Shown here: positions 6,174 through 40,156 of the stretch, piece by piece
Position numbering within the stretch: position 1 is the stretch's first letter
Layout: each line of letters begins with the position of its first letter
Origin: a virus
Reading direction: 5' to 3' (one strand)
IMG/VR virus record: IMGVR_UViG_3300020470_000054
Coordinates: 1-40,156 of that record
DNA: 40,156 bases
The notes under the pieces: model-generated
Told to the model about the DNA's origin: nothing
Databases searched by the model: none
The model's input: the letters and a program-made list of their open reading frames with translations, nothing else
Made by a program: the position numbers and the translations under genes

Positions 6174-7082
6174 TTAGAAGTGGGCGTAGTTTTCTATAGC
6201 CTTGTTGGCTGCGTTTATTGTGTTTAGGTGACTTTCTGCTAGGCTTTCTGCTGTTTGTGATTGTGTGTAGCCTCCTGCTAGTACGAATACGCAGGGTGTT
6301 CCTTGTTTCATGGTTTTGTTGAAGACTAGTTCGTCTCGTTTTTGTAGGGTGTCGTGTGATATTTCTGGGTATGGGTCTACTCCTGCATTGTATAATATGA
6401 GGTCTGTGTTGTCCCAGTCTACGAAGTAGGCTAGTGTTGTTTCTACGTCGGTTAGGTATTCTTCGTCTGTTGTGGCTATTGTTATGTGGTGTGTGTCGTC
6501 GGCTTCGTAGCTGTCAAACATGTTTGTTGAGATGTCGTATTGGTGTACTCGGTCGTCTATTTTTAGGTCTCTTAGCATGCTTACGGTTCCTCCTCCGCAG
6601 TGTGCGTCAAAGTCTAGTATTACGATGTTTTGGTCTTTTAGTAGGTTTGCTGCTACTGCGAGTCCGTTTACGGTGCAGTATCCGTCTCCTTGGTCTGTTT
6701 TGGCGTGGTGGAGTCCTGATGAGAGGCTTCCTGCTATGAGGTGTGGGTACCAGTTTTCTCTTGGGAGTTTACTCATGGCGCTTATTACGCTTTCGCATGC
6801 GGCTAGTATTCCGGCGGTGCTGTTGGCGGCCATTTTCCATATGCCTTCGTCCCAGTCAAAGCCGTTTGATGCTGCTAGCCATTTTGGGTCACCTGTGATT
6901 AGGCTTTGTACGTATTCTTCTGAGTGGGCTTCGTGTATTCCGTGTATGGCTAGATTTACGGCGTGTTTGGGGTCCATTACGTTGTCTAGTCCTAGTTTGG
7001 CGGCGATGTCTGCGCTTTTTCGTGTGGTGTCAAATGACTCTTGTGCAGCGACGTAATGTTTGTTGTAAAATATGTCTATCAT
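6174..7082 (-). CDS. HDAC/AcuC/acetylpolyamine-hydrolase family deacetylase
   Basis: A zinc-dependent deacetylase of the arginase-deacetylase fold, 302 aa. Visible landmarks: the active-site pair H125-H126 in SGLHHAK, GYCTVNG after it, zinc ligands D159 and H161 within ILDFDAHCGGGT, D236 in YNAGVDP, and the LAGGY loop with Tyr272. The usual second His after the ligand (DxHH) is Cys here. The start is placed at the ATG at 7082, preceded by AAGGAG; an in-frame TTG at 7142 lacks one. It is the first gene of an operon with the SNF2 helicase under the promoter at 7182-7210. Wobble bases are A/C-biased. Substrate could be acetyl-lysine on a host or phage protein or an acetylated small amine; sequence alone cannot tell. 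Confidence 0.88.
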   Translation of the reverse strand: MIDIFYNKHYVAAQESFDTTRKSADIAAKLGLDNVMDPKHAVNLAIHGIHEAHSEEYVQSLITGDPKWLAASNGFDWDEGIWKMAANSTAGILAACESVISAMSKLPRENWYPHLIAGSLSSGLHHAKTDQGDGYCTVNGLAVAANLLKDQNIVILDFDAHCGGGTVSMLRDLKIDDRVHQYDISTNMFDSYEADDTHHITIATTDEEYLTDVETTLAYFVDWDNTDLILYNAGVDPYPEISHDTLQKRDELVFNKTMKQGTPCVFVLAGGYTQSQTAESLAESHLNTINAANKAIENYAHF

Positions 7083-7095
7083 TTTGCTCCTTATA

Positions 7096-7122
7096 TGAAC
7101 TAACCCCCAAACTAGTTGGGGG
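7096..7122. repeat. Hairpin in deacetylase leader
   Basis: Perfect 8-bp arms ACCCCCAA/TTGGGGGT around about 5 bases, in the 5' leader of the deacetylase-SNF2 mRNA, just before its ribosome binding site. It could modulate translation or attenuate transcription. No T-run follows it on the minus strand. Confidence 0.55.
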
Positions 7123-7148
7123 TCAGCAATCGCTATACTCAAATATTT

Positions 7149-11198: not shown

Positions 11199-12023
11199 CT
11201 ACTCAGCAGGAGCGTCTTCTTCAGGAGTTTCTTCCTTAGGCTCTTCTTTCTTTTTTGCTGGAGCCTTTTTCTTTGCTGGAGCTTTCTTTGGTTTGCTTTC
11301 AACCATCTCGGCTAGAGATTCTTCTACGCTTTTTGATGGTTTTTCAGGCTCTTCTGCAACTGCTTCTTCTTTGACTGCTTCTTTTTTGACTGCTTCTTTT
11401 TTAGGAGCAGGCTGAACTATTTCTATTTCATCTGGGGTTGGAACCTTTGTTGACTTTTTGAGTTTTAGAACAATTTGCATTTCGTTTGCTTCTTCTGGAA
11501 GAAATGAAGCAAACTGTGAGTTTGGTGTAACTGTAGAAGAAATTACTCCGGTAGTTTTTGGCCAATCAACATAGGATAAAATCCTGCTGTGCATGGCTAC
11601 TCCATGTGAAAGAAACTCGCCAAATTGTAGAGGCACATCAAGTTCGTCTGTTAACTTTTTAATCATTTTTGCAGTTGCTTCAAGATTTTTTTGAGGCATT
11701 GGATGCGCTTCTAAACCTACAACTAGAACCCAAAATGAAGTTCCAATTGATGCTGGAGATTTAGGTAAATGGTCATCAACTATAAGCGCCTTTTTGTCAG
11801 TAGGTAAGTGTTGATACAGCGTGTCGGTCTCCGCATCATACGTTGCGTGAGGACATAGTCTTCTTTCTTCGTAATCTGCAAACGAGCCAGCAACAGTCTT
11901 TGCGCCAGTAACACCTAGAACAAGTTTTGGGCTACCTTCAGATTGCCTAGCAACAAGGTGTGAATCGGTGATCCATGTTGGCCTAACCTGTATAGTTCCT
12001 TTGTAATTCAATAAATTTCCCAT
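11199..12023 (-). CDS. Amidase-like (PGRP-fold) protein with Lys/Glu-rich tail
   Basis: 274 aa. The N-terminal about 190 residues resemble phage N-acetylmuramoyl-L-alanine amidases: RRLCPHATYDAETDTLYQHLP, then an ASIGTSFWVLVVGLEAHP strand and later FLSHGVAMHSRILSYVDWPKT. If this is right, the usual first zinc ligand is missing: the expected V-L-H-x-T is VLGVT (Gly for His). The C-terminal about 80 residues are low complexity, with repeated AVKKEAV and KKAPAKKK units resembling histone H1-like tails. It could be an endolysin, an inactive cell wall binder or a virion protein. The start ATG at 12023 is 6 bases after a TACAAT box (12035-12030). Confidence 0.45.
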   Translation of the reverse strand: MGNLLNYKGTIQVRPTWITDSHLVARQSEGSPKLVLGVTGAKTVAGSFADYEERRLCPHATYDAETDTLYQHLPTDKKALIVDDHLPKSPASIGTSFWVLVVGLEAHPMPQKNLEATAKMIKKLTDELDVPLQFGEFLSHGVAMHSRILSYVDWPKTTGVISSTVTPNSQFASFLPEEANEMQIVLKLKKSTKVPTPDEIEIVQPAPKKEAVKKEAVKEEAVAEEPEKPSKSVEESLAEMVESKPKKAPAKKKAPAKKKEEPKEETPEEDAPAE

Positions 12024-12029
12024 GATGTT

Positions 12030-12069
12030 ATTGTACCTTACTTTGCAACCCAATGCCAGTAGGTACAAT
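12030..12069. promoter_or_regulatory. Divergent promoter pair with mirrored -10 boxes
   Basis: TACAAT on the minus strand (12035-12030) is 6 bases before the ATG of the amidase-like gene; TACAAT on the plus strand (12064-12069), with TTTGCA at 12042-12047 and a 16-base spacer, serves the secreted repeat protein. The -10 boxes, each with GG in front, form an inverted repeat (ATTGTACC/GGTACAAT), so the two genes may be co-regulated. The minus -35 is poor. Confidence 0.55.
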
Positions 12070-12074
12070 ATTGG

Positions 12075-12100
12075 TAGGTGCTACTTGTGTATTGGGGCAA
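12075..12100. repeat. 26-bp repeat, copy B
   Basis: Second copy of the sequence at 7149-7174 (24 of 26 bases identical, direct orientation). Here it covers the predicted 5' leader of the secreted repeat protein. Confidence 0.7.
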
Positions 12101-12102
12101 AA

Positions 12103-15009
12103 TTGTCTAAATTTTTTAAAAGAGCCGCTAAGGGCTGCATAGTTTGGGTATTTTTACTTGCCTTACTTGCCCCCGCTACGGCTTACGCCGCAACATATCA
12201 AGTAGATGATCTTTCGGATTGGTACTTTTACTTAGACTCAACTCAAGAGGTAACTATTTACGGAAACTCTGACCAGTCTTGTAGCTCAATTGATTGGGAG
12301 ACTACGGGAACCGATCCGTACTTATTTTTGTATGAATACAATCCAAATGGGCAAGATACATACTTAACTGAAGATGATGACGCTGGGCACGACGAGCAAA
12401 CACAGTGTGTTAGTTCAAAAATAGTTACCACTCTTGATGAGGGCGTGTACAGAATACGTGCAGGTTATTGGGACGAAAACTCCGGTAGCACTGTCAACGG
12501 TGGAACTGGGAATCCGGAGTACACTCAAGACTGGGGTGATCTGGATTACACAATTGTAACTGATTTAAACATTTCTGAAACCGTTCAGGTCGGCCCTCCG
12601 ATGAACCTGACTATAACTGATAGTGGGAATTCAATTACTTTAGATTGGGATGCTCCAAATACAGGAATCATACCTGTAGAGCGTTATGCAATCTCTTGGC
12701 GCATTCCTCCTAATGCTGGTTGGGGTGTTTCCACTGGTAACGTGGGTGATGCGAATGCTCTAAATACCGAGATAACTATACCGTATTCTTCTTTTGAATC
12801 TACGGGCGGCCTTGGTGAAACTTATGTTTTTGATGTAAGGTCTGATAATGATACCCTTGGGTTTTATTCCGGCTGGTCTACTCAGGTTAGTTTAGAGATA
12901 GGCCCTTCAGATACTGACGGTGATGGGGTCATGGACCCTGACGAAACTGAAGGGTGTATCAACGATATTGACTGCGACGATGATGGTACTGGTGACTTGG
13001 AAGACACTGACGATTTAGACCCAGATGTTCCTGTCCTTACGGTTGACACTGATGGTGATGGCGTCTTTGACGCTGAAGAAGAAGATGGTTGTGGAGACAA
13101 CGTAGATTGTGACGGTGACGGAACCAATGATGCACAAGACCCTGACGACGCTGACCCAGATGTTCCTGTGTTAACAGTAGATACTGACGATGATGGAGTT
13201 TTTGATGCAGAAGAAACAGAGGGGTGTGAGGACGACGAAGATTGTGATGATGACGGTACAGGCGATCTTCAGGATACCGATGATTTAGATCCTGATGTAC
13301 CCAACCTTACAGTAGATACAGATGGAGATGGCGTCTTTGATCAAGAAGAAACAGAAGGCTGTATTGACGACACTGATTGCGATGACGACGGAACTGATGA
13401 TTTCCACGATATTGACGACTTAGATCCTGATGTCCCAGTTCTAACTGTAGACACTGACGGTGATGGAGTGTTTGATGCCGAAGAAGAAAATGGTGAAGAC
13501 TTACAAACTGGAGAAATAGTTGAATGCCGATTCTTTGTTGACTGCGATTTTGACGGTACAGGAGACTTTGACGATCCAGACGATCACGACGCTGACGTAC
13601 CCGTATGGACTATAGACAACGATGGTGATGGCGAGTTTGATAAGGGCGAAGAAGAAGGGTGTGAGCTTACACCAGACTGTGACGGTGACGGTACAGGTGA
13701 CCTTGAGGACCCTGATGACTACGAACCTGACGTACCAGTGTGGACAATAGATAATGACGGTGACGGTGTTTTTGATAGAGGTGAAGAAGCAGGCTGTGTT
13801 TGGGATATAGACTGTGACGACGACGGTACTGGCGACTTGGAAGACCCAGATGATTACGAGCCGGACATTCCTGTGTGGACGATAGACTCAGACGGCGACT
13901 TTGTGTTTGACAGAGGAGAAGAGTTTGGTTGTGAGGATCTTGTAGACTGTGACTTTGACGGAACTTTTGACTTTGACGACCCTGATGATTTTGATCCAGA
14001 TGTTCCTTTTTTAACAATTGACTCTGATGGGGACTTGGTGTTTGACCAAGAAGAATTTGAGCAATGTATTGAAAATCCTGACTGCGACTTTGACGGCATT
14101 GAGGACTTTCAAGACATTGATCCACTTGACCCAGACTCTCCGTTTTTGACCGTTGATAGCGACGAAGATGGGGTCTTTGACGCAGAAGAGGAATTTGGCT
14201 GCGAGTTTATAGAGGACTGTGACGATGATGGATTTACTGACGATGTTGACCCTGACCCACTAGACCCAGATGTGCCCGTAGAAAGAGTTTTGATTGACGG
14301 AGAAGAGGTTGAGTTCTCGTTTGTTGATGAAGAAACAGGTGAGGAACTTAGCAGTGAAGAATTCTTTGAAGAGTTTGAAGTAGCAGAAGAAGATGAAGAA
14401 CTAGCGTTGGAACTTAACAGTCTTGGTATTGACATTGAAGACGTTGATCTTTCTGAGGTTGACGACGCCGAAGAAAAAATCATTGAAGCCCTTGATGAAT
14501 TAGATGAAGAGTTGGCTGAAGACTTCCTTGACGTTGTTGACGGCGAGGTAACTGAAGAAGAAATCCAAGACTTATTTGAAGATGAAGAAGCATTTGAAAC
14601 GCTTATTGAAGAAAACGAAGGAGCTATTGCAATAATTGTTGATGCAGTGAATGAAGCGGATGACTCCGTAAAGGAGGAATTTGAGGAAGAGGTGAATATC
14701 TTTGAAGACGAAGCTTATAACGAATACGTTGCTGCGGGTTCAAACATTGACACCGAAGATAGGCGTGTTATTGTTGCGGCGGCTGCTACAGCCACCGTTG
14801 CGGCAGCAGCAGCCCGACCTGCTCCGCCGACACCACTGCCGCCTCCTCCACCTGCAACACCGACACCTCCACCATCCGGTCCGTCGCCAGCACCATCTGG
14901 CCCAGCGGCATCAGCACCTGCTGCTTCAGGACCATCAGTTGACGTGTCATCAGGAGGGGGAGATGTCGCACCCAAGAAATCAAGAAGGTTTGGAAGGAGG
15001 AGAAAGTAA
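12103..15009 (+). CDS. Secreted calcium-binding repeat protein (thrombospondin type 3-like)
   Basis: 968 aa from a TTG start. That start is chosen because the ATGs at 12022 and 12025 lie before the promoter, and because it gives an ideal signal peptide: SKFFKRAAKGC, a hydrophobic IVWVFLLALLAPATA core and an AYA/ATY cleavage site. After it come a beta-rich domain (about 30-165, prepeptidase-C-like by eye), an FN3-like domain (about 165-265) and ten TSP3-like units of about 42 residues (DNA 12910-14270). Each unit has two DxDxDG calcium motifs and usually a Cys pair. An acidic Glu-rich part, an Ala-rich hydrophobic stretch, a Pro-rich region and a basic tail (KKSRRFGRRRK) follow. It is probably cell-surface or virion-exposed and stabilised by calcium. 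It heads the holin operon. Confidence 0.82.
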   Translation: MSKFFKRAAKGCIVWVFLLALLAPATAYAATYQVDDLSDWYFYLDSTQEVTIYGNSDQSCSSIDWETTGTDPYLFLYEYNPNGQDTYLTEDDDAGHDEQTQCVSSKIVTTLDEGVYRIRAGYWDENSGSTVNGGTGNPEYTQDWGDLDYTIVTDLNISETVQVGPPMNLTITDSGNSITLDWDAPNTGIIPVERYAISWRIPPNAGWGVSTGNVGDANALNTEITIPYSSFESTGGLGETYVFDVRSDNDTLGFYSGWSTQVSLEIGPSDTDGDGVMDPDETEGCINDIDCDDDGTGDLEDTDDLDPDVPVLTVDTDGDGVFDAEEEDGCGDNVDCDGDGTNDAQDPDDADPDVPVLTVDTDDDGVFDAEETEGCEDDEDCDDDGTGDLQDTDDLDPDVPNLTVDTDGDGVFDQEETEGCIDDTDCDDDGTDDFHDIDDLDPDVPVLTVDTDGDGVFDAEEENGEDLQTGEIVECRFFVDCDFDGTGDFDDPDDHDADVPVWTIDNDGDGEFDKGEEEGCELTPDCDGDGTGDLEDPDDYEPDVPVWTIDNDGDGVFDRGEEAGCVWDIDCDDDGTGDLEDPDDYEPDIPVWTIDSDGDFVFDRGEEFGCEDLVDCDFDGTFDFDDPDDFDPDVPFLTIDSDGDLVFDQEEFEQCIENPDCDFDGIEDFQDIDPLDPDSPFLTVDSDEDGVFDAEEEFGCEFIEDCDDDGFTDDVDPDPLDPDVPVERVLIDGEEVEFSFVDEETGEELSSEEFFEEFEVAEEDEELALELNSLGIDIEDVDLSEVDDAEEKIIEALDELDEELAEDFLDVVDGEVTEEEIQDLFEDEEAFETLIEENEGAIAIIVDAVNEADDSVKEEFEEEVNIFEDEAYNEYVAAGSNIDTEDRRVIVAAAATATVAAAAARPAPPTPLPPPPPATPTPPPSGPSPAPSGPAASAPAASGPSVDVSSGGGDVAPKKSRRFGRRRK
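12910..14270 (+). repeat. Ten tandem Asp-rich coding repeats, about 126 bp each
   Basis: Ten in-frame units begin with a T/N/S-D-x-D motif followed by VFD or similar and end near DPDVP. Protein identity is high but synonymous positions vary widely, so the units are old or kept apart by silent change. Unit 5 carries an insertion (EDLQTGEIVE). Confidence 0.8.
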
Positions 15010-26534: not shown

Positions 26535-26701
26535 TGGATGACAAAGAAGACATAACGATAACATTTTCATTTGAAGTAGCGGTTGCCGCCCTTGCATCAA
26601 TAGAAGCGGCGAAAGACCGTGTTGATCCTGATAGGGTTGAATATAAACAAAGATTATATGATGCCCAAAGAATACTTATGGAAGCTATGGGCGTTAATTA
26701 A
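26534..26701 (+). CDS. Hypothetical protein, 55 aa
   Basis: Not recognised. The ATG overlaps the preceding stop by one base (TAATG), so it is co-translated. A beta-like N-terminus (DITITFSFEVAVAALASIEAA) is followed by a charged helix. It ends convergently with the terminase gene: the last bases of the two genes overlap by 4. Confidence 0.65.
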   Translation: MDDKEDITITFSFEVAVAALASIEAAKDRVDPDRVEYKQRLYDAQRILMEAMGVN

Positions 26702-28017
26702 ACGATTATTTCTACCCGTTTACGCAGCCCCATTCCCAATCCTGCACATAAATTAAAAGCGTGCACAGAGGCATCAACTTGGTCGTCATGGACATTTGCT
26801 TCTGGAAATGCTGACATTTCATCAATAAAGTCTGTGTTCCAGTTACCTCGTAACAACCTCACGTTACCATTAGCAACTGCAGCAGCCATTGGCTTAGCTC
26901 TTGTCTCTTTATCTCCTGTTGCTCTTTGACCAGTAAAAGCATACCCCGGCAACACATATCGTGCGTATTGGTCTATAAGATTTTTTCCCGCAGATCCGGG
27001 TTCTTGTTCCATCTGAATAGATATGTCCGGTCCGTCCTCTTCGGCTGTTGCTTTTATAAATTTTTCAACCTTATCACCTTTTGCTCTTATTCTTCTAATA
27101 TCCATTATGTAGAATATTCCATCATGCATCGCACCTAAACACCCAACTGTCCAGTCGGGGTCTGGATAAGATGGTGACGGCTCGCTTCCGGCAAGGTCCC
27201 AAAACCTTATAATTTGCGTATCTGAATCAAAATCAGGTACTTCTGCTGGTTCAACAATTTCAAACATGGTCCTATCAAACATAGACCCTAATGTCGTGGC
27301 CCACCAGTCACCGAATTCTAATCGCTTTCGCTCTACTGGGTCTAGCTCTTGAAGAACCGCACGGTATGACTCTGGGTCAATTCCGGGGTTATCAGTAAGT
27401 TTTGAGGGCACAAATATTCGTCCTTTTTCGTTGCCCTCTACAAGAAACCTTTGACGCACCCAGTTTGGTGCAGGGTTTGTTGCCGCCCTCATCCTCAACG
27501 GCACTTGGGCCAATGGTCCAGTTGATGGGCGACGCAAACGAGAGAAAAGGTACCTGTAGTCAGCTTCTCTAATTTCGGTAACCTCATCCATTCCTATAAA
27601 CTGAAATTCAGAACCTTTATACCTCAGGTAATCTTGACTGTTATTTAGGTAACCAAATGTTACCCTAGCCCCACTTGGGAAGGTTGCTGTGTATTGGTTA
27701 GCATTCCAATGAATGTCATCATAGTTAGATATCCATTCCCTAAACCTATCCATTAGCGCTCCGGGAAGTGACAAGTCGGCATAAGTACGACGAAAAAGAA
27801 TAGCAGAGTAGTTAGGTACATCCACGTATTGTAGTGCCGCCATCAAAAGTGCGGAACTTTTTCCACCACCTGCGGCTCCACCAAACAAAACTTCTTGTGC
27901 GGTTGTCTTTAAAAAGACTTTTTGGGTTAATGAGGGAGCTTCTACCCAATAATCCGAGGATTTTGGTTGCAGCCATTCATTTATCGCTTCCCAGTCTTCT
28001 TCTTTCGTTAGCGCCAT
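26698..28017 (-). CDS. terL: Terminase large subunit
   Basis: 439 aa packaging motor. ATPase motifs: Walker A GGAAGGGKSS (about 46-55), Walker B FIGMDEVTE, then the RNase H-like nuclease domain with FWDLAGSEPSPS and a final HDDQVDASVHAF. It cuts concatemers and drives DNA into the prohead. AAGGAG lies 11 bases before the ATG. It reads away from the portal gene, which is on the opposite strand; a small-subunit gene was not recognised in the window. Confidence 0.96.
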   Translation of the reverse strand: MALTKEEDWEAINEWLQPKSSDYWVEAPSLTQKVFLKTTAQEVLFGGAAGGGKSSALLMAALQYVDVPNYSAILFRRTYADLSLPGALMDRFREWISNYDDIHWNANQYTATFPSGARVTFGYLNNSQDYLRYKGSEFQFIGMDEVTEIREADYRYLFSRLRRPSTGPLAQVPLRMRAATNPAPNWVRQRFLVEGNEKGRIFVPSKLTDNPGIDPESYRAVLQELDPVERKRLEFGDWWATTLGSMFDRTMFEIVEPAEVPDFDSDTQIIRFWDLAGSEPSPSYPDPDWTVGCLGAMHDGIFYIMDIRRIRAKGDKVEKFIKATAEEDGPDISIQMEQEPGSAGKNLIDQYARYVLPGYAFTGQRATGDKETRAKPMAAAVANGNVRLLRGNWNTDFIDEMSAFPEANVHDDQVDASVHAFNLCAGLGMGLRKRVEIIV

Positions 28018-28227: not shown

Positions 28228-29939
28228 TGGCGTGGAATAAGCCAGAAAACAAATCAATTCAAAGTATAGATACAACTGCTAAAGCGGCCCCAATTTCTGT
28301 TGGTGCCCCTATTTCATATAGCCCCAGTTTACAGCCTAAAACAGGTTACCACGATGGTTGGGACATCACTAAAGCCTATCAAGATGGTGTAGCAAAAGTT
28401 ACTTGGGTTTATCGGTGCATTGACGTTATTGCTTCAAACCAAGCAAAACTACCTATGGTCTTCCGAAAAGACAACAACCCTTTTGGTGAAGTTATCACAG
28501 AAGCCCCATTACTTGAGATTTTTAACAACACAACCAATGTTGGTGAAAATGCGTTTGCTTTCAGATACAGACTTTCCGCACAACTTTTGATGAGCACCAG
28601 AGGTGTCTTTATTGAAATTGTTAGGAATAAGATTGGTGACCCAATTGCCTTGCACTTATTACCACCAGCAGACACTGCACCAATTCCAGATATTAAAAAG
28701 TTCGTAAAAGGGTACGAGGTAAAACTACCTCAAGGCGACACACGAGTAATTAAGCCCGAAAACGTAATATGGATACGTCGCCCTCACCCATTAGATCCTT
28801 ACTTGTCAATGACTCCAATGGAATCCGCTGGGGTGGCTATTGAAGTAGAGAATCTTGCAAAGATTTATAATAGAAACTTCCTCATAAACGATGGTAGACC
28901 GGGCGGTCTCCTCGTTTTAAGAAGCGAAATAAATGAAGAAGATAAAGACGAGCTTAGGTCTCGTTTTCAGGGAAACATTGCTAGGGCTGGGGCAGTAGGA
29001 GTTATAGCCTCAGATGACGGTGCTGATTTTGTAGACACAGCAGCAAGCCCTAGAGATGCGGCCTATATTCAAATGAGGACAATCAACAAAGAAGAAATAT
29101 TTGCTGCTTTCGGTGTACCAGAGTCCATTATAGGCAACTCTTCAGGAAGAACTTTCTCTAACGCTATGGAAGAGGGTAAGGTTTTCTGGATGGAAACAAT
29201 GGAGCCGCACCTTGATCTCATTGCTAGATCTTTTGACCCAATTGATCCAATTTATTTTGTGGATTTTGATGTTTCTGGTGTTCCTATCCTAATTTTAACC
29301 AAACAGGAACAACACGGCTTTTATTTACAAGAATACCAACAAGGACTAATTAGTGTTAACGAATACAGGACTTTAACGGACAGGAAAAAGGTTGAAGCCG
29401 AATTGGCTGATTCTATTCTTGCTAATCCAAATCTTACACCTATTGCTAACACAGAAAAACCAATGGAAGATCCAGCGGCTGCTCAACAAGATCCTATGGC
29501 AGCAGCAGGTGGAGCAGGAATGCCCGGAGTTCCGGGCGCTGACCCAATGGCATCTCCTGAAGGGGCTGTTCCTATGGGTCCTGAAGGTGCTCCGGCTGGC
29601 CCTGAAGGTGCTCCGGCTGGTGCTCCAGCTGGACCTGAAGGCGCTCCTATGGAAGAGCCTCCTGCCCCTATGAATCTTCAAGCAGGAGTTCCGCTAACTG
29701 AACAAGCAAGCCAAGCCCAACAATCAATTGCTACAGAGTTTAGCCCAGAAGAAGGGGGCTTTGTTCCACTTGGTACGGTTTCAGGTACAGACGACATTGA
29801 ACTTGCGGCAGCAGATGTTGAAAGCGAGTTAGATGGTTTTGAGTTAGAAGATGAAGAAGATGAAACAGAGCTAGAAGGTTTTGAGCTAGAAGAAGAAACT
29901 GAGGGTAGGAAGAGTCTCCCTTTTCTGAGATCAGTCTAA
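28227..29939 (+). CDS. Portal protein
   Basis: HK97-type portal, 570 aa. Recognisable blocks: TWVYRCIDVIASNQAKLPM, LMSTRGVFIEIVRN, LHLLPPADT, PYLSMTPMESAG and the long NDGRPGGLLVL to IGNSSGRTFSNA core. The C-terminal about 180 residues are low complexity: a repeated GPEGAPAG unit (DNA 29578-29660) and a Glu-rich end. The portal forms the DNA gate of the head. The last codons contain a -1 frameshift signal (29918-29924), so a fraction of ribosomes may make a longer portal-MuF fusion. The first bases overlap the membrane protein stop. Confidence 0.95.
   Translation: MAWNKPENKSIQSIDTTAKAAPISVGAPISYSPSLQPKTGYHDGWDITKAYQDGVAKVTWVYRCIDVIASNQAKLPMVFRKDNNPFGEVITEAPLLEIFNNTTNVGENAFAFRYRLSAQLLMSTRGVFIEIVRNKIGDPIALHLLPPADTAPIPDIKKFVKGYEVKLPQGDTRVIKPENVIWIRRPHPLDPYLSMTPMESAGVAIEVENLAKIYNRNFLINDGRPGGLLVLRSEINEEDKDELRSRFQGNIARAGAVGVIASDDGADFVDTAASPRDAAYIQMRTINKEEIFAAFGVPESIIGNSSGRTFSNAMEEGKVFWMETMEPHLDLIARSFDPIDPIYFVDFDVSGVPILILTKQEQHGFYLQEYQQGLISVNEYRTLTDRKKVEAELADSILANPNLTPIANTEKPMEDPAAAQQDPMAAAGGAGMPGVPGADPMASPEGAVPMGPEGAPAGPEGAPAGAPAGPEGAPMEEPPAPMNLQAGVPLTEQASQAQQSIATEFSPEEGGFVPLGTVSGTDDIELAAADVESELDGFELEDEEDETELEGFELEEETEGRKSLPFLRSV
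29578..29660 (+). repeat. GPEGAP coding repeat in portal
   Basis: Short tandem in-frame units reading GPEGAPA and GAPAG encode a collagen-like Gly/Pro/Ala linker in the portal C-terminus. Confidence 0.7.
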
Positions 29940-29972
29940 AGTCGTTAGATTGGGAAACTAAAGTTGAACGAC
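29905..29972 (+). promoter_or_regulatory. -1 programmed ribosomal frameshift signal (portal to MuF)
   Basis: The slippery heptamer C-CCT-TTT (29918-29924) is in the correct zero frame of the portal. After an 8-base gap comes a 7-pair stem (29933-29939 with 29945-29951, one G-T) whose loop bases GTCG (29941-29944) can pair with CGAC at 29969-29972, forming an H-type pseudoknot. An AGGA about 10 bases upstream resembles the dnaX frameshift stimulator. Slippage continues in the MuF frame, which otherwise has no in-frame start codon before a TTG at 30077. Confidence 0.75.
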
Positions 29973-30709
29973 AGGTCCTTTCTCTTGAGGATAAATACAA
30001 AAAAACAGTAGATGCTGTCATAGATGCCCAAGAAGAATTAGCTTTAGCTAAACTAGAAGAAGACACAACATTAGCTTTGATTGGTCTAGGCTCAAATGCC
30101 GATTTTTCTTCAGTTGTTTCTATGGCAGAGCTTATTGAAACATCTCAGCCTTTAGTAGACGGAATGAAAGAAGCCTACGAAACTGGTGCTAAGGATAACG
30201 TTCAAGAAGGGTATGGGGCTTCTATTGAAGAAACTTTTGCTAATGCGGCCCTGTCTCAACAAATAGCAACCGTCAATGAGTTTAATTCAACGACACAGGA
30301 CCAAATAGTTAGCGCTTTAACTGAAGCGAGTATTTTAGAGAACGATAGTGGGGATGTTGATATTGCGCTTAAGGCATATTTAGCATACACACTCATTAAA
30401 GCTATTTTCAATAAACTTAGGGATAAACGCAGAAAACTTATTATAGATACGGCCATTTTAGGTTCATATAATATGGGTGTGTATGATTCTGCTGTTTCAG
30501 ACAGAAAACAGTTCCCTTCATTGAAAAAAACGTGGCTTTCTATGCAGGATGATAAGGTTAGATTAAGCCATAGGATACTAAATAGAAACTCAGTTCCGGT
30601 AGCTGAACCCTTTATTGTTGAGGGAATTCCTATACGTTTTCCAAAAGATCCAGTGGCTCCGCCTTCTTTAACAATAAATTGTAGATGTTTCTTAAAGTTC
30701 TCTAAGTAA
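29924..30709 (+). CDS. MuF-like head protein, made by -1 frameshift from portal
   Basis: 261 aa in the -1 frame of the portal. This frame opens after a stop at 29906 and reads as ordinary protein (LKSLDWETKVERQVLSLED) from before the portal stop, but there is no ATG, GTG or TTG before 30077, so frameshifting at 29918 is the likely route, giving a fusion of about 827 aa. The C-terminus has the MuF signature: LSHRILNRNSVPVAEPF and INCRCFLKF. MuF proteins are minor head proteins associated with the portal. Alternative: initiation at TTG 30077 makes only the last 210 aa. Confidence 0.75.
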   Translation, partial: SEISLKSLDWETKVERQVLSLEDKYKKTVDAVIDAQEELALAKLEEDTTLALIGLGSNADFSSVVSMAELIETSQPLVDGMKEAYETGAKDNVQEGYGASIEETFANAALSQQIATVNEFNSTTQDQIVSALTEASILENDSGDVDIALKAYLAYTLIKAIFNKLRDKRRKLIIDTAILGSYNMGVYDSAVSDRKQFPSLKKTWLSMQDDKVRLSHRILNRNSVPVAEPFIVEGIPIRFPKDPVAPPSLTINCRCFLKFSK

Positions 30710-30733
30710 TTTATATAAAGGATTTATATAAAG
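30709..30733 (+). repeat. Tandem 12-bp repeat before protease promoter
   Basis: ATTTATATAAAG occurs at 30709-30720 and 30722-30733, one base apart, just upstream of the -35 box at 30739. Probable AT-rich upstream element or regulator site. Confidence 0.65.
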
Positions 30734-34157: not shown

Positions 34158-34265
34158 ATGCAAAACGCTCAGATTTTAATAAAAATCCGAGAAATAAAAG
34201 CAACTATAGGTTTTCCAGAGATAGAATATCTCTGTAAATGTTCATGGATTGGGACGGGTAGATGA
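34158..34265 (+). CDS. Small hypothetical protein, 35 aa
   Basis: A GGAGG site (AGGAGGGTCCG) precedes the ATG, and the stop overlaps the next ATG by four bases (ATGA), so a short gene that couples translation of the giant frame is likely. The peptide is hydrophobic-basic with LCKCSW near the end. Too short for recognition. Confidence 0.55.
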   Translation: MQNAQILIKIREIKATIGFPEIEYLCKCSWIGTGR

Positions 34266-37200
34266 CAATTTTTGAATCCAAAGCTCCACATGAAGCTATC
34301 CTAGACCTTCCGCAAGAACGCATCACTGGTGACATCCTTAGAGGACGAGGACCAAGGCGAGGAAACTTAGAGCGGTTAATCAAATATTGGCGACCAATTA
34401 TGCGCAAACCCGGAGGTTTTCGTAGGTGCCTTGTTATTTTAGCTAATCATCCTGAGCTTTATCCTCTTGAGAGAATTTGCGCATGGCTACATCATGAGAC
34501 AACAGGGCTATGGCCGAATGAAGGCAATCATCATGAAGGCGGAAAACTTGGCCCTATAGTTGGACAAGCTAGAAGATTTTTGAAGAAACCAAAACGCAAA
34601 AAGCGTGGTAAACGTAAAAAGAAAGATGATGGTATCTACCTTGATCCAGAAACCTATAGCCTTAGAGCTATGGTTGGTGAGTCTCGCTTATTTGACGGAA
34701 TCTTAGTTCAGCCTATAGCAGGACGACAGAACGTAGTGGAAATGAAAGCCGCTATGTTTGCTAACAGAATGTCTGAAGTTAGAGTTGCCAGCAATGAAAT
34801 AGAATTTAAAAAAGTTGGACTTATTGGAAGCGGTAGTGCTGCTGGACAGGCCCTACAGGCGGCTGGAAGTATTTTATTGCCCGGCGATATCTCTGACTTT
34901 AGAAGCCCAGTTAGATCTCAAATTTATGAGACATTAACTCCGGGCGGTGGACGTGGACTCCCTAGTGCTAGACGACTTATACGAGGCGCTGGAAGTGGTG
35001 CACGAAACAAATACAGATGTCCCCCCGGCTTCCAAAAAGGTGGGACATTTACAAATAAAACATTTTCTACTTGTGGTGCTCAGGTTCTAGCGCTTCCGGA
35101 TATGGGTCCGGGTTCGTTAAATGCTGACGCCCAAAGAGCGCTTGCCGATTTAGCTAGAGATGCAAGCATGGTGCGAAGCGTAGGGGAGCTTAGAAGCAAC
35201 TCCAACCCTTACGCAGTTATTCGTGCTGCTCAAATACCTTTCGCCCCCAAGAAGGGGAGCCCCACTAGACGACAGATATCAACAGATCTTATTTTAGGTC
35301 GTGTGTTTGATGGAGAAGAATTTGGCCCTAGGTTTGTCCGTAGAGACGGAGTTATTTTAGAGCCAATGGTTTCTGAAGAGTTTTTAAGCAAAATGGACGA
35401 GTTTGACGACATGGTTGATGGCTCGTTTGTGACGACTTATAAAGAAGGCGTTGTTGGTATTGATTCTTTACGTACGTTTGGAACAGGAATCAGAGACACA
35501 TACATAGCTATTCCAGATACTGGTGTTGTTAAAGTAAGTAGGGTTGGTGGAGAGATTTCTCCCGAGACTCGTGCAGGCACCATTAGAGCGTTTAATGCCG
35601 AGCAAGGCCGTTCGCCTAATATTATTTTTCCGCTGCTTGAATTTGTTAATAGTTCTGATGGAAAGTTTGATGTTGAGTTTGGTGATATTACTAATAACAA
35701 GTATGTCCCTGCAACAGACGAGACAAATGCACTAGTAAAGGTTAAGTCTGGAAACATAACCAAGTTGGTCCCTCAGTGGGTTTACAATACTTTCTTGTCA
35801 AGGTCTGCTCCACGTAGAGCGAAAGACGCACCCATTTTTGAGATGGTCTCCGACAAGCCAAACGAAAAAACCTTGTTAGCTAAATCGCTAACTAAAAATT
35901 ATTTAGACCAGTCTTCTGCACATTCTTACCACATTTTTATTGATACTAAAGCTGCTAAGTTTAATGCAGCACTACATAGTGCAGATTTAGAGTTGAAAGT
36001 TAAGTTGCGCAGGGCAGGAAGACGATTTGGCGCTACCGCTGAATCTGTTGGCGATGTCGCTGGTGGCGCTTCTGCAATATTTGACTCTACCTTGAAACGA
36101 TATCGCTGTCCTCCGGGAACTAGAAGAGGTGGCTCATTTTCCGATAAGTTCGGAACTAATTGTGGCTACTCACTCCCCAAGAATTTAGTTAATAATTTCA
36201 TTAATGTTGGGAAAGACCTTGCTAATGCAGCTAAGTTAAAACCCTTCAAGAGAGCTAATAACCCCGGAGTCAAGACACAAATATCAAGCTTAGGACGTGT
36301 TAAAGAAACACTTACATCAACTCTAGCAAAAACTGAAGACAAAGTAGGAAGCGGTATAGGTAGAACGATTGCTCAATCTAGAAAGTTGCGTTCATTAACT
36401 CCTGAAGAGCGTACTTCTTTAGATGGTGAGCCTTTGCGTGATTCTTTAAGAAATTTAAGGTCTTTTGTGCAATCTAACAGAGATAGTCTTTCTGTTGGAG
36501 ATACAAGGAAGATATTTAAGGAGCTTTCAGATTTAAGCGCTTTAGAGGCTGGGCGTATAACTGATAACCCAGACGGAGATAAAAACATTCAAAGAGAAAT
36601 ATCTGATTTGATGGATGGGACTCTTAATGATCTTAGGTCTATTGTTAAAGGCGCAACCCCTGATGTTGATGTAGATCCTAAACCACAGAAAAGAAGAGAT
36701 GATCGTGAAGCACGATTGTTACCATCTGTGGATGAGATTGTAGCTGACACTCCACGACGCATAAAAAGAGGGAAAGACATTCCCGAAGTTAGGGCTCTAC
36801 AATTCCGCACAGACCCAACAGACATAAATTCTGATGTAGACCCTGACAAAGTAAGACGCATGAGAAGCATTATAGAGGCTGAGCAAATTCGTTTGGCCGA
36901 TGAGATGAATTCTCAAATGGGACGTAGGTCTAGAAATCTACGTGTGACGGACAGACGTCGTCGTGGCCGTGGCTCTACTACCCTAGTCAGCGATAATGTT
37001 GCAGATTTAGATGACCTAGAAGAGCAGGCACGAGCGTACATTAGGGCGAATCCCGACAAGACCGCATTCCAAAGACGATATATGGACCTTAGGGAACTTC
37101 GCGAACTACAAAGCCTACCTGACGATGGACCAGTAGGAACTAGGTTATTAGATTTAGCTGAGAACTCTGTAAGGCGTTTAGCCCCAGTACGAAGAGATAA

Positions 37201-40156
37201 TATTGTTAGTGCGTTTGTTAGCGATAGAGAAGACGGCTTAGAACGTATACAATCATACCGAGCACGAGTAACCGATCAAGCGGCCAAGAGAGGTCCAGCC
37301 ACAAAAGTCCGATCACGTATAGCTGAAACACGGGCAAAGATAGCCGAAAACAAACGCTTAAGAGCGGATGGAAGAGGAGTTCAATATGTTGACCCAGACA
37401 GGTTAACTACTCCGAAGAGCAAGTCAGCGCAGTCTGCACAAGAAGGCGTGTTAGGAACTTTAGATCTTGATAGCTCTATTACTGACGTTACTCAGGTGGA
37501 TTGGGAAGTGCAAGGCGCTATTGAGCGTGCGAGAATGCAAAGAGAATTTGATTATTTCCAACAGTTGTCTGAAGCTTTAGGCTTTGAGCGTTCTGATTGG
37601 GATTTAGGCGATGGCGATCTAGATGTAGGTTATGCAAGACTTAGAGAGATTTCCAACGATCCGGATGCTTCATTAGAGTGGGCTAGAAAAGCTTTAGGTC
37701 ATGAGAAACGAGTTTTCCACAAAGATCCTCCTTTTGTAGTAAACATTGATGGTCAAGACCGAACGGTAAGGAAGACTTTAAAACCCACCATTGCAGGTGT
37801 TGAGAAGAGCGGAGATGAACTGGTTATTGCAGGTGCAGTTGAATTCGCATTAGTTGATGTTGATACTAACGAGGTTGTTTTTGTAGGTAGCCCACCGAGT
37901 TCCCCATGGAATCAAAGCGGAGTTTTAACTCTTGGGCTAAAACTTCCTGCAGATAGGCGTAGGTCTGAGTTAGACGCCAAGATGTTAGGCATAGATTATC
38001 AAACCACAATTGGTGGACAGCCAGTAAGTTGGGCTTCAGGAGGGTTTTCTGAAGAATTAATTAAAGGTGGTTTACCTTTTATGCGTGGCGGAGGTATTGA
38101 CACTGTCAAAGTACATGCTGCCGACATGGGTGAGGCGGCATGGCCGAAGAAAAGTTTCCGAGAGAGTAGCGTTGGTAGAATACAAAGTCTAAATAAGGAA
38201 ATGGGGGAAAAGGTTGGCGCATTCCGTTCTGCCCGAAGAGCGCAGGCAGAAGGAAGAGAACTTACCGTAAGAGAAAAAGCTGCTATAGTTTTCTTTAGCA
38301 ACGATGACTCCATTGCTGATGAAGTAGAGAGAATGAGTCGGACTGCGACTAGTGCTACTGAACGAAACATGCCGGGCCACCACGATTATATGAATGTTTT
38401 ATGGAAGCGTGATCCTGAACGGAATGAGCTCGGCGGAGACGGCGGATTTGTCACAAACACCACACTTTTCCATTCTTTTGGTGCTAGAAGTTGGGGTGGC
38501 CTTTCTGATGCTGACCGAGAGGCTGTTATTAGAGAGTACAGGGAAATTTGGCCTGATGCTGACGAAAACGAAGTAAGGCAAGCCTTTAATTCCTCTAGCA
38601 TAGATAATAGTTTTAACTCAGGGGTTATGGACATTAGCCACTTAAAGGTAAGAAGCCAAAGCGACCTAGATGAGATAATACAAAACTATGAGAATCCTAA
38701 CGCAGGATTGGTTAATGTTTACGGCGAGGGAATATCTTCAGAAGTTAGATCGGTTACTCACAATGGAGTTACTCAGGAAATAAGCTTACTTCCTGATGGT
38801 GAAATTCCACGAATGGCGGCGCTTAACGATTCAGAACGACGTGCGATGTCGTCTGGTATAGTTAGCAGCTTAAGAGAACTAGAAGTGAATGAGGGGATTG
38901 GTGACGATGATCCGGGTGTGGCTAGAGTTATTGCCTTAAACGATGCGTTATCTGATCCTGAAACGAGAAGATTAGATAGAAACCTAATTAATTTAGGTAG
39001 CGATGAAAATGTTGAGTTGCTTCGTTCAGACATATTAGACCTTAGAGAGATTGCTGATGATGCTGGAGACACTGAATCCAGAGATTCTCTTGACTCATTG
39101 TTAGTAGCCTTAAATGGTGATCCTGATGGAACCCGAATCTTTGTTCCTGATGATGCCGGAGAGGCTGAATGGCTGATTAGCCCTAGTGCAACTGATCGCT
39201 ATGCAGATGAGATCAGTGATAGGGGAAGCGTTCGGACAGGAAGAGCTATGCGTTCTGTTGAAGGACGCTATGACATGCAGGGTCCTACGGGAGATCTTTG
39301 GGAAGAAGAAGACTTAAATGAAGAGGTATTAGAAGTAAGGCTTGGAAATCGCTTAGACGACGTTAATGTCAGCGATGAGGACTGGGACGGAATGTCGCTT
39401 GATGATGCCGCTGAATTCCTAAACATGCCCAAGGAAGAAGTTAGAGAGCGTGCTCACGCTGCAAGAACTAGACGAGCAATGGAAGAGTTAGGCGATCAAG
39501 AGGTTGATATTTACAATAACACTGTCCCTTCTGAAGCGCACACTATGACATTATCAAAGGATGAATTATTGTCTTTGGAGGCTGCTCTTAATCTATCTTT
39601 AGACGCTTACCCAGATGAAGATGGTGATGATAAGTTAACGTCTTTGTTGTTTGAAGTTCGTGAGGCTAATATTGATGGAGAAGAGCGTGCTGTTTATCTT
39701 GGTAGTTTAGAGAATGTTGGCGAATTACAAGATTTGTTAGATAATAAACTAAATAGATTTATGGATGATGACGAAAGAGGCGCTACATGGGTCGCAGAGC
39801 TTGAGGAGACTGTTGATCATTTCCGTTCCGCAAAAACAGATCGGAATCTTATTTCTCGTAGCGTTTTAGAGGCGGGTGAAATTACTTCTGGTGATTTGGA
39901 TTCTAGCGAGCTTATTGAAGATTTAAGAGTTGGTCGGGCTACACGTGGCACTGACGCTCCTTCTCCTAACATTCTTTCTGCATGGCCTGATAGGGATGAC
40001 GATTCAACTTTTGAAGCCCGTTTGGCTAAGTTTAGAGAAGATCGTGATGCCTCAAGGTTCACTAATAGAGAGCTTGAGAGAGTAGTAGAAGAATTAAGCA
40101 TGGGTCCTCCGGAGTTCCGTAGAGGTAGAGCTTCTAGGGAAGCGTTTACTGATACC
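34262..40156 (+). CDS. Giant protein, partial, function unknown
   Basis: The frame is open without a stop for 1965 codons and leaves the window, so it is truncated only by the window edge. It starts in an ATGA overlap with the 35-aa gene. A motif RYRCPPG followed by GG-x-F and a CG ending occurs at about residue 253 (first Cys) and again near 616. Much of the rest is charged, Arg/Asp/Leu-rich and helical, without a recognised enzyme or membrane segment. A lysine/arginine block (RFLKKPKRKKRGKRKK) lies near residue 110. Position after the protease suggests a very large virion or ejected internal protein. No known giant phage enzyme (for example virion RNA polymerase) was recognised. Confidence 0.7.
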   Translation, partial: MTIFESKAPHEAILDLPQERITGDILRGRGPRRGNLERLIKYWRPIMRKPGGFRRCLVILANHPELYPLERICAWLHHETTGLWPNEGNHHEGGKLGPIVGQARRFLKKPKRKKRGKRKKKDDGIYLDPETYSLRAMVGESRLFDGILVQPIAGRQNVVEMKAAMFANRMSEVRVASNEIEFKKVGLIGSGSAAGQALQAAGSILLPGDISDFRSPVRSQIYETLTPGGGRGLPSARRLIRGAGSGARNKYRCPPGFQKGGTFTNKTFSTCGAQVLALPDMGPGSLNADAQRALADLARDASMVRSVGELRSNSNPYAVIRAAQIPFAPKKGSPTRRQISTDLILGRVFDGEEFGPRFVRRDGVILEPMVSEEFLSKMDEFDDMVDGSFVTTYKEGVVGIDSLRTFGTGIRDTYIAIPDTGVVKVSRVGGEISPETRAGTIRAFNAEQGRSPNIIFPLLEFVNSSDGKFDVEFGDITNNKYVPATDETNALVKVKSGNITKLVPQWVYNTFLSRSAPRRAKDAPIFEMVSDKPNEKTLLAKSLTKNYLDQSSAHSYHIFIDTKAAKFNAALHSADLELKVKLRRAGRRFGATAESVGDVAGGASAIFDSTLKRYRCPPGTRRGGSFSDKFGTNCGYSLPKNLVNNFINVGKDLANAAKLKPFKRANNPGVKTQISSLGRVKETLTSTLAKTEDKVGSGIGRTIAQSRKLRSLTPEERTSLDGEPLRDSLRNLRSFVQSNRDSLSVGDTRKIFKELSDLSALEAGRITDNPDGDKNIQREISDLMDGTLNDLRSIVKGATPDVDVDPKPQKRRDDREARLLPSVDEIVADTPRRIKRGKDIPEVRALQFRTDPTDINSDVDPDKVRRMRSIIEAEQIRLADEMNSQMGRRSRNLRVTDRRRRGRGSTTLVSDNVADLDDLEEQARAYIRANPDKTAFQRRYMDLRELRELQSLPDDGPVGTRLLDLAENSVRRLAPVRRDNIVSAFVSDREDGLERIQSYRARVTDQAAKRGPATKVRSRIAETRAKIAENKRLRADGRGVQYVDPDRLTTPKSKSAQSAQEGVLGTLDLDSSITDVTQVDWEVQGAIERARMQREFDYFQQLSEALGFERSDWDLGDGDLDVGYARLREISNDPDASLEWARKALGHEKRVFHKDPPFVVNIDGQDRTVRKTLKPTIAGVEKSGDELVIAGAVEFALVDVDTNEVVFVGSPPSSPWNQSGVLTLGLKLPADRRRSELDAKMLGIDYQTTIGGQPVSWASGGFSEELIKGGLPFMRGGGIDTVKVHAADMGEAAWPKKSFRESSVGRIQSLNKEMGEKVGAFRSARRAQAEGRELTVREKAAIVFFSNDDSIADEVERMSRTATSATERNMPGHHDYMNVLWKRDPERNELGGDGGFVTNTTLFHSFGARSWGGLSDADREAVIREYREIWPDADENEVRQAFNSSSIDNSFNSGVMDISHLKVRSQSDLDEIIQNYENPNAGLVNVYGEGISSEVRSVTHNGVTQEISLLPDGEIPRMAALNDSERRAMSSGIVSSLRELEVNEGIGDDDPGVARVIALNDALSDPETRRLDRNLINLGSDENVELLRSDILDLREIADDAGDTESRDSLDSLLVALNGDPDGTRIFVPDDAGEAEWLISPSATDRYADEISDRGSVRTGRAMRSVEGRYDMQGPTGDLWEEEDLNEEVLEVRLGNRLDDVNVSDEDWDGMSLDDAAEFLNMPKEEVRERAHAARTRRAMEELGDQEVDIYNNTVPSEAHTMTLSKDELLSLEAALNLSLDAYPDEDGDDKLTSLLFEVREANIDGEERAVYLGSLENVGELQDLLDNKLNRFMDDDERGATWVAELEETVDHFRSAKTDRNLISRSVLEAGEITSGDLDSSELIEDLRVGRATRGTDAPSPNILSAWPDRDDDSTFEARLAKFREDRDASRFTNRELERVVEELSMGPPEFRRGRASREAFTDT

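Follow-up and report, generated by a model that had tools for sequence, protein, structure and literature searches.

How a reading frame that offers no start codon over its first stretch comes to be translated is the question raised by the junction of two head genes in a 40,156-base IMG/VR virus record, which we analyzed over its whole length and refer to as the window. The upstream gene encodes a portal protein: its PF04860 match extends over the whole domain (residues 60–383 against positions 2–319 of the 321-position profile), and its tail, after about residue 410, is rich in Pro, Ala and Glu. The frame that overlaps its 3′ end belongs to the MuF family, and a prohead protease gene follows the pair. 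Our main conclusion, drawn from the comparison of sequences, is that ribosomes undergo a programmed −1 frameshift at this junction, to which we assign a probability of about 0.93.

The portal–MuF junction

The MuF frame of the window matches phrog_2468 (1.9e-21) and head-morphogenesis PHROGs, and reaches 27 bits against PF04233, just below the Pfam cut-off of 29.6. The same profile is matched (E<=0.01) by all 16 of the MuF homologues scanned, with a best value of 1.7e-12, and it is this match in the homologues, together with the position directly after the portal, that places the frame in the family. An AlphaFold model of the frame built on 16 homologues (pLDDT 82.5) has its best Foldseek neighbours among minor capsid proteins and head morphogenesis proteins of phages, together with some portal proteins; a search of the PDB for relatives of solved structure, by sequence or by fold, returned nothing useful.

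Table 1. Features at the junction, in positions of the window.
Feature	Position	Strand	Basis or remark
Portal gene, 0-frame product 570 aa	28227..29939	+	Pfam Phage_portal PF04860 E 7.7e-53; phrog_2662 9e-58; phrog_12 6e-52
MuF-family frame, −1 relative to portal	29909..30709	+	PF04233, PHROG, AlphaFold/Foldseek
Frameshift element GAGGGT-AGG-AAG-AGT-CTC-CCT-TTT	29901..29924	+	Conserved in homologues
SD-like purine block GAGGGTAGGAAGAG, probable 5′ stimulator	29901..29914	+	Anti-SD pairing
Heptamer C_CCT_TTT	29918..29924	+	CCT>CCC in P site, TTT>TTT in A site
Pre-start segment of MuF frame	29924..30076	+	Precedes any ATG/GTG/TTG; helix and invariant residues
Stem-loop and possible pseudoknot	29931..29972	+	Present in window; not conserved

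The earlier note on this DNA had drawn attention to a slippery heptamer in the frame of the portal, to an SD-like AGGA before it, and to a downstream frame that is open from before the portal stop and yet startless until TTG 30077, and we find all three in place. CCCTTTT is phased as C_CCT_TTT in the portal ORF, and thus has the X_XXY_YYZ form of bacterial −1 sites, in 0-frame phase, inside the ORF overlap and with the downstream ORF at −1. GAGGG ends 12 nt and AGGA (29907–29910) 7 nt upstream of it. On its upstream side the −1 frame is closed by TAG 29906–29908. The window has 0.0044 in-frame X_XXY_YYZ heptamers per codon, so that about 0.04 are expected by chance in the 10-codon overlap and the heptamer alone is only mildly surprising.

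Under the frameshift reading, most ribosomes would finish the portal protein at TAA 29937–29939, and a fraction would pause at the heptamer, aided by pairing of the 16S rRNA with the SD-like block. A slip of one base back would move tRNA-Pro from CCU to CCC and tRNA-Phe from UUU to UUU, and reading would continue in the MuF frame, giving a fusion of 827 aa (566 portal residues ending SLPF, then 261 aa from SEISLK). Short and long portal proteins would co-assemble in the 12-subunit ring, so that few subunits carry MuF inside the head. We infer the efficiency of the slip, the tRNA re-pairing, the mixed ring and the importance of its ratio, as well as the minor share of the fusion and its presence in the head.

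Conservation and coding constraint

A portal search in IMG/VR yielded 80 relatives. The window and the contigs of 61 of these have a MuF frame at −1 that overlaps the portal, and every one of them carries C_CCT_TT[T/A/C] in the right phase. The heptamer and the SD-like block stand at fixed spacing in 42 of 42 distinct −1 junctions, and the element is found in 0 of the 22 distinct junctions of other architecture, among which one contig cut before its stop, L055, is not counted. Once the homologues are considered in this way, the case against chance is overwhelming. In all, the −1 set comprises about 70 IMG/VR contigs falling into 18 portal clusters at 90% amino acid identity; CCCTTT is invariant in all 18, the seventh base being T, A or C. 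The 0-frame portal stop varies in codon and in place, from 3 to 36 nt past the element, whereas the spacing within the element is constant.

When 2.9 million viral contigs were scanned blindly for the DNA motif by itself, GAGGGTRRGAAGAGYNNCCCTTT, 60 contigs matched, eight of them new with respect to the portal search. Each match falls close to the 3′ end of a portal homologue and is in the frame of that gene, and all 59 that could be assessed have MuF in the −1 frame. The comparison establishes, at the level of sequence, both the conserved element and its frame relation to MuF. Among 257 Gb of bacterial and archaeal genomes the motif matched once, outside any portal gene. Two further portal scans returned mainly contigs already found, indicating that, at this sensitivity, IMG/VR contains few further members of the clade. 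Portal and motif searches of 84,980 bacterial and archaeal genomes found no portal relative; the nearest isolates infect Actinobacteria, a weak hint at the host. A further regularity of the 60 motif loci is a TGA, TAG or TAA that closes the −1 frame upstream, always exactly 9 nt from the heptamer; the motif pattern permitted TGG at this position, but all 60 have a stop there.

For an analysis of codon usage we took one portal per 90% cluster (18) and the 263 columns with a conserved, degenerate residue. The commonest codon averages 57% over these columns, and five are codon-invariant. Four of the five fall in the frameshift element, namely GAG, GGT, AAG and the P-site CCT, a clustering with a hypergeometric P of about 1e-7. 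The codon before CCT varies in amino acid (Leu, His, Val, Arg or Asp), with a third base that is always C, the base required by the heptamer at this point. As the element codons are invariant and the preceding codon keeps its C while its residue changes, selection acts on the nucleotides, and the heptamer is conserved beyond what its amino acids require.

The MuF frame is under protein-level constraint ahead of any start codon. Between the portal stop and the first ATG, GTG or TTG its dN/dS over the homologues is 0.16, whereas the other two frames give 1.5 and 3.4 (106 pairs, which are non-independent). AlphaFold confidently predicts a helix in this segment (residues 15–49), and E27, D39, Q41 and E42 are invariant among the homologues. 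A conserved near-cognate start (ATT, ATC, ATA or CTG) was sought in the −1 class and none was found; the first in-frame starts of this class almost all lack a ribosome-binding site, and none is conserved. In the motif-scan set, the first ATG, GTG or TTG lies 38–212 nt beyond the portal stop, at unconserved places. With this constrained stretch ahead of every start codon, and with neither a near-cognate start nor a ribosome-binding site conserved, the ribosomes that translate it must come from the portal frame. The proposal of the earlier note, that programmed −1 frameshifting is how the MuF frame is translated to give a portal–MuF fusion, is strongly supported by this comparative evidence of the element and of the constraint. 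One practical consequence is that gene callers will give these MuF genes a false start and drop their first 20–75 residues.

Stimulators and alternative explanations

Pairing of the upstream block with the anti-SD of 16S rRNA amounts to −9.8 to −10.6 kcal/mol in 14 of the 18 clusters and to −6.2 to −6.9 kcal/mol in the other four. The window's own cluster is among the latter, at −6.2, where GAGGGTAGGAAGAG offers two weaker registers. The GAGG core ends 12–13 nt before the heptamer, slightly beyond the reported optimum: an SD 8–11 nt upstream stimulates −1 shifting in dnaX (PMC6321510), and a search range of 6–17 nt has been used for SDs at −1 sites (PMC4066793). Such 5′ SD stimulators are frequent at bacterial −1 sites (PMC5009743). 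In E. coli, the most efficient motifs are those that allow cognate re-pairing of the A-site tRNA (PMC4066793), a rule with which UUU to UUU re-pairing would agree. Codon invariance, anti-SD pairing and the comparison of junctions all point to an SD-like stimulator upstream of the heptamer. A hairpin within the element, GGAGG/CCTCC, was seen by eye in many members and rejected; it is not conserved, since the CTC codon varies to GCC, GAC, GTC, CAC and CGC.

The earlier note had also described a downstream stem with a pseudoknot, and a reading in which this is the key stimulator would draw on pairings that do exist in the window: the stem 29933–29939/29945–29951 has seven pairs, one of them G.U, and can be extended to nine, and the loop GTCG (29941–29944) pairs with CGAC (29969–29972). 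Folding downstream of the heptamer is not beyond chance, however (for the window, z = −1.6 with 45 nt and +0.9 with 60 nt), and over the family it is average, with a mean z of 0.06. All three distinct closest relatives lack the central C–G pair of the stem, most close relatives no longer have the loop pairing, and the structure is broken in relatives with 81–91% portal identity that keep the heptamer. Of what the earlier note expected homologues to share, then, the heptamer and the start-codon gap are kept and the stem is not. A hairpin or pseudoknot is optional at bacterial sites, and the family has no conserved one, so that a leading role for the pseudoknot is very unlikely; the conserved stimulator is probably the SD-like purine block. 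Against the frameshift reading itself count the lack of a conserved 3′ structure, which many −1 sites have, the weaker SD block in the window's own cluster, and the position of the GAGG core just outside the reported optimum.

MuF might alternatively be a separate protein with its own, possibly non-canonical, start reached by termination–reinitiation, the SD-like block being its ribosome-binding site. SDs near gene ends do serve coupled starts in many operons (PMC5009743), and the relatives L049–L054 really use an ATG that overlaps the portal stop. For these contigs an own start is true; for the −1 class, near-cognate starts included, we reject the explanation as highly improbable, given the distant and unconserved first starts, mostly without an SD, the constraint upstream of them, and a portal stop that moves relative to an element of fixed spacing. 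It would also leave the invariant C_CCT_TTN unexplained. An error of sequencing or assembly might be supposed to have broken a single portal–MuF ORF, such as the relatives outside the clade possess, but this has a negligible chance of being correct: it is refuted by the recurrence of the same break in 18 diverged clusters and in about 70 contigs of many different metagenomes, with 0-frame stops that differ in codon and place between clusters. Transcriptional slippage would join the frames into an identical fusion product, and usually requires longer homopolymers than the runs present here, which are merely CCC and TTT(T). As the fixed codon phase and the upstream SD block suit a ribosomal mechanism, we consider slippage of the polymerase extremely improbable. 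A more serious contender accepts the frameshift and holds that the fusion alone matters, the short portal being a tolerated by-product and the ratio of the two having no role. Relatives with the fused gene manage with MuF on all of their subunits, and L055 appears to have been re-fused, but the element has stayed intact over large portal divergence even though one indel would restore a single ORF; this makes the by-product explanation unlikely, if far from negligible.

Evolution and significance of the portal–MuF arrangements

In the portal-core tree the fused state, a single ORF, is found in all outgroups, which are the isolates Cantare, ChisanaKitsune, GMA6 and Gilgamesh and the environmental contigs L074–L081. 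All frameshifted genomes fall into one supported clade (100/99). Within this clade, one subclade (L040, L042, L065, L177, L190, L194, L199 and L200) has neither MuF nor the element, and its protease gene directly follows the portal; another, L049–L054, with its own MuF ATG, has no element either. In L055 (3372–5243 of a cut contig), portal and MuF are apparently re-fused in frame and an element remnant, GAGGGTAAGCAGTTGTACCCTTTA, is kept. A −1 shift at the remnant would terminate after 7 codons, so here the element may act in reverse, with the 0 frame giving the fusion and the shift ending translation. The simplest history, and a likely one on this tree, leads from a fused gene to the frameshift and then to losses, an own ATG or re-fusion; its direction is likely rather than proven, because the tree is rooted at its midpoint and the branches of the isolates are long. 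A single origin of the frameshift is probable, and the 18 clusters are thus conserved descendants and not independent origins. Since L055 appears re-fused and one clade lost MuF, some of these phages do without a fixed ratio or without MuF itself, which also weighs against the main reading. For the earlier note, a homologue whose MuF gene has a normal start codon, or one that has lost the heptamer, would have spoken against its proposal. Homologues with their own MuF start (L049–L054) or without MuF (L040, L042 and L065) do exist, but they are exactly the ones that lack the element, which strengthens the case for frameshifting.

Portal–MuF fusions as single ORFs have been published for the Microbacterium phage clusters EA3, EA5, EA8 and EB (PMC7302621). 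Natural fusions such as phrog_2662 and gp46 of Streptomyces phage Gilgamesh join these two domains, in identical order, in a single chain, and their portal is homologous to that of the window (36–43% identity to the nearest isolates). In contrast to these single ORFs, which place MuF on all subunits, the arrangement described here needs a −1 shift, and most of the product should lack MuF. SPP1 gp6/gp7 likewise holds MuF in the head via the portal and in few copies (PMC5576092, PMC6316719), but as a separate gene product bound non-covalently rather than through the covalent fusion proposed here.

As a mechanism, frameshifting at this junction is of a known kind. The tail assembly chaperone G/GT, found in long-tailed phages such as lambda (PMC3483164 and PMC7911831, citing Xu et al. 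2004), also makes a minor C-terminally extended form by a −1 shift at X_XXY_YYZ near the 3′ end. It differs in that here the genes are portal and MuF, of the head and not the tail, with a strong conserved SD block and the heptamer CCCTTTN. We rejected an identification of the pair itself as G/GT, as it is a portal and a MuF gene ahead of a prohead protease. E. coli dnaX also combines a slippery heptamer with an upstream internal Shine-Dalgarno, but its shift yields a shorter product and uses a downstream hairpin, whereas the product here is longer and no hairpin is conserved. Frameshifts in coat and tail-tube genes, given for the head protein of Lactobacillus A2, for Listeria PSA, A118 and A500 and for the T3 coat protein in PMC5009743, similarly give a virion protein that forms oligomers a minor, extended version; their extensions are often Ig-like domains, in place of a MuF domain on a portal ring. 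The phage frameshifts reported are in tail chaperone, coat and tail-tube genes (PMC5009743), the portal being unmentioned in the part of that review covered here, and the PRFect paper names MuF only in connection with fusion genes (PMC10885494). We found no published portal/MuF frameshift in the largely open-access literature that was searched, and such absence is not proof. As far as we have seen, the portal/MuF location is new.

In SPP1, the MuF protein gp7 binds the portal and is present at 1–2 copies per capsid (PMC5576092). A minority of portal–MuF subunits made by frameshifting would be a direct way to reach so low a number in a 12-mer, and we rate the chance that the frameshift doses MuF copies per ring as about even. 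Somewhat more tentatively, this may be the first case of recoding for an asymmetric portal, with the shift efficiency acting as a dosing device that sets some 1–2 MuF subunits per 12. If the frameshift reading is true, the portal becomes one of the few virion proteins known in a form extended by frameshifting, and there is a testable answer to how a phage restricts an internal MuF protein to a few copies in a portal of 12-fold symmetry. The four states of MuF that the clade provides, namely fused, frameshifted, with its own start and lost, form a natural series for studying what MuF does.

Other features of the window and its relatives deserve mention. The palindrome TTTATATAAA occurs twice, at 30710–30719 and 30723–30732, directly after the MuF stop and 70–95 nt before the protease ATG, where 0.1 copies are expected by chance. 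A near-identical motif, in one or two copies, stands in the same place in 16 of the 17 clusters examined and is rare elsewhere in the loci; the palindromes are candidates for a late promoter or operator. The terminase large subunit gene (26698–28017, − strand) lies directly upstream of the portal operon on the opposite strand, whereas in the isolates it is co-directional with the portal. An ORF at 34262–40156 (+) encodes at least 1,965 aa before running off the end and has no Pfam match and one weak PHROG match; Gilgamesh also carries a giant ORF after its portal–MuF gene. At 12022–15009 (+) a 995-aa protein without a Pfam match has a hydrophobic N-terminal stretch and DTDGDGVFDAEE-type repeats, and at 6174–7142 (−) the phage carries a gene for an enzyme of the histone-deacetylase fold (PF00850, E 1e-24).
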